Positions 8,342-21,298 of a stretch of 64,000 nucleotides of DNA are shown piece after piece. The position numbers and the translations under genes are program-made. The notes beneath the pieces were generated by a model that saw only the letters and a program-made list of their open reading frames with translations, did not search any database and had not been told where the DNA came from. Each line of letters starts with the position of its first letter. Position 1 is the first letter of the stretch. The stretch lies in assembly GCF_004168035.1 (NCBI RefSeq), contig NZ_SDPU01000021.1, forward strand, positions 1 through 64,000, written 5' to 3'. The DNA is from Nocardioides iriomotensis. Its GTDB lineage: Bacteria; Actinomycetota; Actinomycetes; Propionibacteriales; Nocardioidaceae.

Positions 8342-8417
8342 GGGGCTGTGGCGCAGCTGGTAGCGCACCTCCATGGCATGGAGGGGGTCAGGGGTTCGAG
8401 TCCCCTCAGCTCCACCA
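8342..8417 (+). tRNA. tRNA-Ala (anticodon GGC)
   Basis: Complete 76-base cloverleaf with encoded CCA. Acceptor GGGGCTG pairs with CAGCTCC (one G-U), D arm GCGC/GCGC, anticodon stem CCTCC/GGAGG around loop ATGGCAT giving anticodon GGC, and T arm GGGGTTCGAGTCCCC reads as stem plus TTCGAGT loop. A terminator hairpin follows. Confidence 0.96.
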
Positions 8418-17745: not shown

Positions 17746-18627
17746 GTGAAGGTCCTGGTCGTCGAGGAGAGCCGCGTGATGCGGCAGATCCTCGTGCGCG
17801 CGCTGCGGCAGGCCGGTCTCGACGGCCTCGACGTGCTGCCGGCCGAGGACGGCCGCGCGGGGCTGCAACTCGCCCGTGAGGAGTGTCCCGATGTCGTCCT
17901 GTGCGGCTGGAACGTCCCGGGCCTGTCGGGGGCCGAGCTCGTCTCGTCGCTGCGGCTGGCGGTCGGCTCCGGCCGCGTGGTCGTGGTCAGCGCCGAGACG
18001 GCGTCACCGGCGGTCGCGGCCGAGGCGCGCCGCGCCGGCGCGGACGTGGTGCTCGCCAAGCCGGTGACCCCGGAGGGTCTGGCCGCGGCAGTGACCGGGG
18101 AGGGGGACCCGCCCGAGCCGGGCGAGGACGAGGAGACCGGCCACGAGGCGCCGGCCCACGTGCCGACCCCGTTCGAGGTGCGCGACGCCCTGACCACCTT
18201 GCTCGCGCGCGACGTCGAGGTCGACGCCGGCGACCCGTTCTCAGGGGAGGACGCCCGCACCACCTACGCCGTCTACGTCGACGAGCGTCTCGCCGCGCGC
18301 GTGGTCGCGGTGGCGGACGTCGGCTTCTCGGCCCACGCCGGCGCCGCCGTCGGGCTCGTGCCGGCGCCGCTGGCCGTGAGCGCGGTACGGCGCGGCAACC
18401 TGCCGGACATGCTCGCCGAGAACCTCGACGAGGTGCTCAACGTCTGCGGTGCCGCCGTCAACGGGCCCGGCCGTCCGCACCTGCGACTCTGGTCGGTGCA
18501 CCACGCGGGCGAGGACGCCCCGCCGGACGTCGTCGCGTTCGCCGCCGTACCGGGGCGGCGGCTGGACCTCCTCGTCAGCATCCCGTCGTACGGCGACGGC
18601 CGGCTGTCCTTCGTCGCGGTCGACTGA
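17746..18627 (+). CDS. Degenerate receiver domain fused to a CheX-like domain
   Basis: A 293-residue protein. Residues 1-120 have the response-regulator receiver fold: acidic pair E7-E8, VVVVS Ser in strand 4, and the conserved Lys in VLAKPVTP. The phospho-acceptor Asp is missing: DVVLCGWNVPG has Gly54 at that place. After an acidic Pro-Glu linker (about 122-145), the second half resembles CheC/CheX phosphatases, with the motif E229-V-L-N232 (E-x-x-N) followed by VCGAAVNG. No chemotaxis genes are near. RBS GGGAGG precedes the GTG. Possibly a phosphatase controlled by protein contact and not by phosphorylation. Confidence 0.72.
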   Translation: MKVLVVEESRVMRQILVRALRQAGLDGLDVLPAEDGRAGLQLAREECPDVVLCGWNVPGLSGAELVSSLRLAVGSGRVVVVSAETASPAVAAEARRAGADVVLAKPVTPEGLAAAVTGEGDPPEPGEDEETGHEAPAHVPTPFEVRDALTTLLARDVEVDAGDPFSGEDARTTYAVYVDERLAARVVAVADVGFSAHAGAAVGLVPAPLAVSAVRRGNLPDMLAENLDEVLNVCGAAVNGPGRPHLRLWSVHHAGEDAPPDVVAFAAVPGRRLDLLVSIPSYGDGRLSFVAVD

Positions 18628-18649
18628 GCGCGCCCGGGCGGGGGTGCGG

Positions 18650-18655
18650 TAACCT
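18650..18655 (+). promoter_or_regulatory. -10 hexamer of the leuS leader
   Basis: TAACCT fits TAnnnT and ends six bases before the leader-peptide ATG, so the transcript probably begins at that ATG. Confidence 0.6.
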
Positions 18656-18661
18656 GCTGTC

Positions 18662-18697
18662 ATGCGGACGACCCTCCTGCTTACCTGGCCGCGTTGA
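18662..18697 (+). CDS. Leucine-rich leader peptide of leuS
   Basis: An 11-codon frame, MRTTLLLTWPR, with three consecutive Leu codons (CTC CTG CTT, 18674-18682), directly after a -10 hexamer and ahead of an intrinsic terminator and leuS. This is the layout of a ribosome-mediated attenuator: when charged Leu-tRNA is scarce the ribosome would stall on the Leu codons. It is too short for gene finders. A stem can form between 18687-18694 (end of the peptide) and 18711-18718. Confidence 0.72.
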   Translation: MRTTLLLTWPR

Positions 18698-18718
18698 CCT
18701 GACGACGTCGACGCGGCT

Positions 18719-18744
18719 GCCCCTCGTGCCTGAGGGGCTTTTTT
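18719..18744 (+). terminator. Attenuator terminator of leuS
   Basis: Stem GCCCCTC / GAGGGGC with loop GTGCCT and six T directly after: a textbook intrinsic terminator, rare in such GC-rich DNA, 68 bases before the leuS start. Confidence 0.85.
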
Positions 18745-18811
18745 GTGCCCGGGACCCGGGCCGAGCAGGAAGACCGACAGCCACCAGCGGAACCGCACGA
18801 GGGAAGACGAG

Positions 18812-21298
<2,487 letters not shown>

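Follow-up and report, generated by a model that had tools for sequence, protein, structure and literature searches.

A predicted leucine-responsive attenuator ahead of leuS in Nocardioides iriomotensis and its counterparts in other actinobacteria

The leuS leader region

The window analysed here, a stretch of 64,000 nucleotides from Nocardioides iriomotensis, carries on its forward strand a leuS gene (18812-21298, start codon ATG at 18812) encoding a leucyl-tRNA synthetase of 828 amino acids (TIGR00396, leuS_bact, E 2.3e-281). On the same strand, an ORF whose product, judged by eye, resembles a response regulator (17746-18627) ends 22 nt upstream of a hexamer belonging to the leuS leader. This hexamer, the -10-like TAACCT (18650-18655, forward strand), lies six bases ahead of the ATG of a leader peptide ORF of 11 codons (18662-18697, forward strand; MRTTLLLTWPR*), in which three consecutive leucine codons, CTC CTG CTT (18674-18682, forward strand), are the predicted control codons. 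The leader stop codon TGA (18695-18697) is enclosed in a forward-strand hairpin, designated P1 (18687-18718, arms 18687-18698 and 18707-18718), of 12 pairs, two of which are G-U. An intrinsic terminator hairpin (18719-18738, forward strand) follows P1 with zero gap; it comprises a perfect 7-bp stem (arms GCCCCTC, 18719-18725, and GAGGGGC, 18732-18738) with the loop GTGCCT, and leads into a U-tract of six T (18739-18744, forward strand). The recurring motif GTGCCCGG (18745-18752, forward strand) adjoins the U-tract. Every element that the preliminary description had read from the letters was found at its exact coordinates when the sequence was re-read, including the 11-codon frame with its three leucine codons six bases after TAACCT, and the seven-base stem with six T followed by leuS.

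The predicted fold of 18662-18744 has an energy of -41.2 kcal/mol, compared with -24.75 (sd 3) in 200 shuffled sequences, none of which equalled it (z -5.48). A simple scan of 18500-18900 returned one terminator-like site, that at 18719-18744, where 0.1 was expected. A strict-rule scan of the same interval returned no sigma-70-type promoter, so the case for TAACCT is its position and its conservation in relatives. From the spacing between TAACCT and the ATG, a leaderless transcript would be expected, and folding predicts a strongly structured terminated RNA of about 83 nt. A weak additional hairpin in the stretch from the leader start codon to the leucine codons (18662-18682 and the equivalent region in relatives) also shows up in many of the predicted folds. 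A GTGCCCGG- or ATGTCCGG-like motif after the U-tract lies past the point where the terminated RNA should end; 90 of 175 leaders have the pattern RTGYC[CA] no more than two bases from the U-tract, compared with a frequency of 0.5% at random positions upstream.

At the gathering score, Rfam gave no match to the leader, the only match in the window being a tRNA at 8342. The best sub-threshold match in 18600-18830, taking the T-box and all other families together, scored 19.3 bits, below the cut-off of 49.5, and eight related loci returned no Rfam matches.

Distribution and covariation among relatives

Two covariance models were built, R1 from 25 leaders of leuS genes in the family, window sequence included, and R2, as a guard against circularity, from 29 leaders with no Nocardioidaceae sequence among them, where membership of that family was assigned by sequence titles and kinship. 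R2 matched the window at 18662-18752 with 83.4 bits (E 5.9e-18), and its only other match there had E 2.6. Independently of the leader models, 80 named leuS loci were picked by similarity of the LeuS protein, from Nocardioides, Kribbella, Propionibacteriaceae, Arthrobacter and relatives, the Streptosporangium group, Actinomadura and others. R1 matched ahead of leuS in 71 of these 80 loci, and in 65 of the 71 a leader ORF carries two or more leucine codons side by side. The other nine had no R1 match, and some of them show no leader; in three (L246, L264 and L266), inspection by eye found short ORFs with one or two leucine codons, including CTA. The sequence TAnnnT stands 6-7 nt before the start codon in all 129 leuS leaders found with the covariance model (CM-found) and in all 65 named ones, counts that carry the bias that, among several possible starts, the one with a TAnnnT hexamer was favoured, and that the two sets have some genomes in common.

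Under strict filters, genomes with an R1 match numbered 151 of 245 in the order, 133 of 296 in the class and 21 of 246 in the phylum, on lists that overlap and with a model that contains the window sequence. Eight of the 21 phylum genomes lie outside the class, and the nine matches in them precede ilvB (six), leuS (two) and a leuA-like gene (one), as read from the translated genes; one of these leuS genes (L294) was checked by family search. Both types of LeuS carry the element, with 111 unique elements for the short type and 23 for the long type. Some genomes have two leuS genes, one of each type and each with its own leucine leader (L116, L117, L120 and, in genome G370, L118 and L119); in L116, L117 and L120 the two genes lie about 3 kb apart.

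The preliminary description proposed an alignment of related upstream regions as a check, and this bore it out, since relatives near and far retain the leucine codons, the terminator and the spacing. When 69 relatives were aligned to R1, 96.9% of cells were paired, against 42-62% for structures slid by 1-3 columns; two-sided changes affected 10 of 17 pairs, with 116 such cells compared with 14.9 in shuffles. Helix 1, corresponding to P1, was paired in 99.4% of cells with two-sided changes in five of nine modelled pairs, and helix 2, the terminator, in 94.1% with two-sided changes in five of eight. An alignment fitted to R1 leans towards the model structure; in alignment A1, not fitted to R1, two-sided changes were already present in 7 of the 17 pairs.

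Leader codons and the gene downstream

In several genomes a second R1 match was found before cimA, encoding citramalate synthase (TIGR00977), with isoleucine codon runs such as ATC ATC ATT in place of leucine codons. Citramalate synthase is the entry to isoleucine synthesis. The genome of the window itself has such a gene on the same contig beyond the window (C14:85521), with the leader VQRQIIIS* and abutting hairpins. Searches of seven genomes of the genus found cimA in six, all with an isoleucine leader and abutting hairpins. A family search of the L109 protein identified it as the TIGR00977 citramalate synthase. The combination of cimA, isoleucine leader and P1-terminator layout was seen at L305-L310, L106-L115, L121, L122, L125, L129, L141, L143, L144 and L303. 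The hexamer of the cimA leaders is mostly CAnnnT after TGG; 3 of 19 have a correctly spaced TAnnnT.

Codon runs were then counted in any frame and with the downstream gene ignored. Of 134 leuS elements, 129 had a leucine run without an isoleucine run and five had neither; among 29 cimA elements, 22 had an isoleucine run only, three had both, four had neither and none had a leucine run only. The Fisher value for this swap is not a true probability, because the sequences are related. The exchange of leucine for isoleucine codons according to the gene is the best evidence for what would be an amino-acid-specific, ribosome-mediated attenuation. Elements lacking a cognate ORF numbered 5 of 134 for leuS, 4 of 23 for CM-found cimA and 6 of 71 for the named leuS set.

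The ilvB leaders in other classes of the phylum (L295 and L298-L302) contain valine, leucine and isoleucine codons. Five of these six outside-class leaders end with CTT ATT ACC TAG, after which comes the abutting P1-terminator pair. In seven ilvB leaders the gap between P1 and the terminator is 0-1 nt, yet they were found with R1, which favours such gaps. The P1-terminator design stands before cimA, ilvB and leuA as well, and leuS is not its sole host.

In leuS runs of at least three codons, taken up to the last NTT, CTT occupies the third place in 103 of 105 CM-found and 56 of 58 named cases. CTT is included in the leucine run of 63 of 65 named leaders and accounts for 2.0% of 4288 leucine codons in the leuS genes; it closes the run in 115 of 129 CM-found leaders, where R1 itself favours CUU, a mild bias. 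The runs of CM-found cimA leaders end with ATT in 17 of 19 cases, compared with 18 ATT among 180 isoleucine codons at the starts of cimA genes. In the cimA leaders of the genus of the window, ATT is last in none of six and elsewhere in the run in five of six. The rule that NTT comes last is therefore firm for leuS only; the cimA pattern is weaker and fails in this genus. Pairing of the leucine codons with the 3' arm of the terminator (CUCCUU with GAGGGG) was considered as the cause of the fixed T and rejected, since by eye it is lost in leaders with CUG CUU and the ATT codons of cimA cannot form it.

The role of P1 and the mode of attenuation

The proposal in the preliminary description of a leucine-responsive attenuator before leuS is well supported by the leucine codons, the terminator and the spacing kept in relatives. 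Confidence is high that the element, as predicted from these features, is a leuS attenuator responding to Leu-tRNA; more specifically, 18650-18744 probably acts as a ribosome-mediated transcription attenuator that would make leuS expression depend on how much charged leucyl-tRNA is available. Transcription would start at or beside the ATG, and a ribosome would load on the leaderless RNA. With ample Leu-tRNA, the ribosome at the stop codon would mask P1 and the terminator would end transcription. When Leu-tRNA is scarce, the ribosome would stall, P1 would form first and RNA polymerase would read into leuS.

In order to follow the leader at different ribosome positions, the ribosome was modelled with a footprint reaching 12 nt beyond the first base of the A-site codon; the transcript as it exists before synthesis of the terminator 3' arm was folded, and pairing of the terminator 5' arm was the readout. 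An equilibrium terminator probability had been tried and rejected: it stayed at about 0.98 at every ribosome position and was equally flat in E. coli trpL and leuL (0.94-1.00), which made it uninformative, and it was replaced by sequestration of the nascent 5' arm, which separates the controls. In eight E. coli controls, whose terminators were delimited by a routine that differed slightly from the one applied to the test sets, pairing of the 5' arm was 0.56-0.90 when the ribosome stood at the first control codon, and in seven it was 0.01-0.22 at the stop codon; the exception was hisL (0.69 and 0.68). The test sets comprised 114 CM-found leuS, 59 named leuS and 19 cimA leaders, after 15 of 129 CM-found and 6 of 65 named leuS leaders with no T run by a simple rule, or with fewer than two hairpins, had been left out. 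Median arm pairing at the first codon and at the stop codon was 0.05 and 0.33, 0.05 and 0.37, and 0.25 and 0.32 in the three sets, respectively, and the median difference, first minus stop, was -0.22, -0.16 and -0.04. Stalling raised arm pairing by more than 0.3 in 0 of 114, 0 of 59 and 0 of 19 leaders, against seven of the eight E. coli controls; the 173 leuS entries (114 and 59) come from overlapping sets. As arm sequestration does not rise on stalling, a classical base-pairing switch is not seen.

The preliminary description found no clear antiterminator and suggested that the stem 18687-18694/18711-18718 could be a pause hairpin. That no overlapping partner of the terminator is visible was borne out, and the stem is real; it extends to 12 pairs and covaries, and it stands out as the leading antiterminator candidate. 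In the window, P1 shares at most one nucleotide with the terminator, through an added U-G pair, as read from the sequence. Among the 114 leuS leaders, contiguous extension of P1 takes no terminator bases in 88, one in 25 and three in one. Downward extension of P1 into the terminator was considered as the switch and rejected, both by eye and on these 114 leaders, because it is not conserved. The position of P1 is nonetheless regular: its gap to the terminator is 0-1 nt in 110 of 114 leuS, 56 of 59 named and 18 of 19 cimA leaders, and in 109 of 114 and 57 of 59 leuS leaders it begins 4-5 nt past the final codon of the run, with an inner length of 19-55 nt across the 114. In nascent RNA of these 114 leaders its median formation falls from 0.97 with the ribosome on the first codon to 0.44 on the last and 0.00 on the stop codon. 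P1 is the most likely candidate for the missing antiterminator, an assignment from modelling that is held with moderate confidence.

P1 would then antiterminate by abutting the base of the terminator, through steric hindrance at the RNA exit channel or stacking there, and not by arm pairing. This mode of action is the weakest step of the proposal and is held to be rather doubtful. In an abutment control, which was small and in which GC-rich folds favour adjacency, 73 of 75 leader-like terminators adjoined a hairpin of at least 9 bp, compared with 6 of 14 other terminators; three of those six (L106, L237 and L244) proved to be leaders missed by the rule, which leaves 3 of 11 non-leader terminators that abut. 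The distance from the leader stop codon to the terminator also counts against the preferred explanation, as do the nine named leuS loci that R1 did not match. According to PMC4824070, E. coli tR2 escapes repression by the ribosome at more than 27 nt, and known attenuators are placed more than 20 bp away; the spacing in the window is 21 nt, below the former value.

The preferred reading, moreover, does not account for the near-fixed slow CTT, which is the third codon, where P1 is only half available. This is better explained if P1 aids termination, as part of a stacked helix or as a pause hairpin: a ribosome at the slow third CTT would cover the base of P1, which starts 4-5 nt after the last codon, and leuS would be on, and fast translation followed by release would let P1 and the terminator form. 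The near fixation of CTT as third codon (103/105 and 56/58 runs) agrees with such a role. However, P1 is masked still more (0.00) once the ribosome is at the stop codon, so that replete cells would read through, and for the C. glutamicum ilvBNC leader PMC11857589 makes the adjacent hairpin the antiterminator. A pro-termination P1 is considered unlikely.

Less probable still is that a protein or ligand binds the leader with no translation switch at all. For the LEU element of leuA in S. coelicolor, binding of a protein or ligand was suggested because codon mutations had little effect, and the ilvB and leuA codon mutants of this species do not behave classically in the sections of PMC1262725 that deal with them; the absence of a visible pairing switch in the leuS leaders would fit. 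That paper describes no intrinsic terminator for the LEU element. But such binding gives no reason for the gene-matched codon swap, and the sequences of P1 and its loop vary widely (inner length 19-55 nt in 114 leaders) with no conserved unpaired pocket.

A further idea, to which very little probability is given, is that the terminated RNA or the peptide also acts in trans, which could coexist with an attenuator and would explain the very stable tandem hairpins. The rnTrpL and peTrpL of Sinorhizobium are a precedent for trans-acting leader products. The terminated RNA, at about 83 nt and highly structured, would suit this role, but the ends of the leader peptides vary among relatives. Equally improbable is that the terminator constitutively serves the upstream ORF 17746-18627, that the leader ORF arose by chance and that leuS has its own promoter further downstream: the same-strand ORF does end 22 nt before the hexamer, but leader ORF, P1 and terminator stay together before leuS where the upstream region differs, and the codons match the amino acid of the gene.

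The preferred reading, a translation-gated attenuator, has likenesses among known systems. The leuL and trpL attenuators of E. coli share with it tandem cognate codons, a terminator and the logic of ribosome position; in the E. coli attenuators, however, the stalled state captures the 5' arm of the terminator (seven of eight controls), and in the leuS leaders it does not. The target of E. coli leuL is the biosynthetic gene leuA and not the synthetase.

In the Mycobacterium tuberculosis ilvB1 leader, according to PMC13236596, replacement of the control codons abolishes induction and the antiterminator forms on stalling. It resembles the leuS leader in having a translated leader with branched-chain codons, a terminator and an antiterminator, and differs in being a 166-nt leader on ilvB1NC that is neither leaderless nor on leuS. 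The closest structural parallel is C. glutamicum ilvBNC, for which PMC11857589 sets the start codon a single nucleotide away from the 5' end of the transcript, lists CUU among the control codons and has the bases of antiterminator and terminator adjacent, with an overlap of three nucleotides, GCC. The two hairpins stand side by side as in the window (gap 0; 0-1 nt in 110 of 114 leuS leaders), but those of ilvBNC compete for GCC and are joined by a third, anti-antiterminator hairpin in that account, and sharing of three nucleotides occurs in 1 of 114 leuS leaders.

A putatively leaderless leucine leader on a synthetase gene in an actinobacterium had been singled out as worth a look; it has precedents in Streptomyces leuS. 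A 2005 study predicted leuS attenuators for S. avermitilis and S. coelicolor (in the leuS part of PMC1262725), and in 2021 S. lividans LeuL2, MRAVRLLLSEPR, was described as leaderless, with a hairpin and a U stretch (in the LeuL2 part of PMC8079986). Like the window, these loci have a leader peptide with a leucine run and a terminator before leuS. The exact LeuL2 peptide MRAVRLLLSEPR was found in three Streptomyces-type loci (L094, L131 and L205), whose LeuS is of the long type (964 amino acids in L131), compared with the 828-residue bacterial type of the window. The element in the window belongs to this already described kind of leuS attenuator.

No report of a cimA leader was found in searches of the open-licence literature. 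The present data place the leuS attenuator, described earlier for a few Streptomyces, in many actinobacterial families, and add a matching predicted isoleucine switch on cimA. A tentative generalisation from these sequences is a phylum-wide scaffold, shared by leuS, cimA, ilvB and leuA, in which a gated hairpin 0-1 nt upstream of the terminator, with no shared nucleotides, may block it by position, and the codon run is swapped from leucine to isoleucine to retarget the switch. If P1 does antiterminate by abutment, structure-based searches that insist on an overlap between alternative hairpins will fail to find actinobacterial attenuators, and abutment would be a new way to block intrinsic termination.
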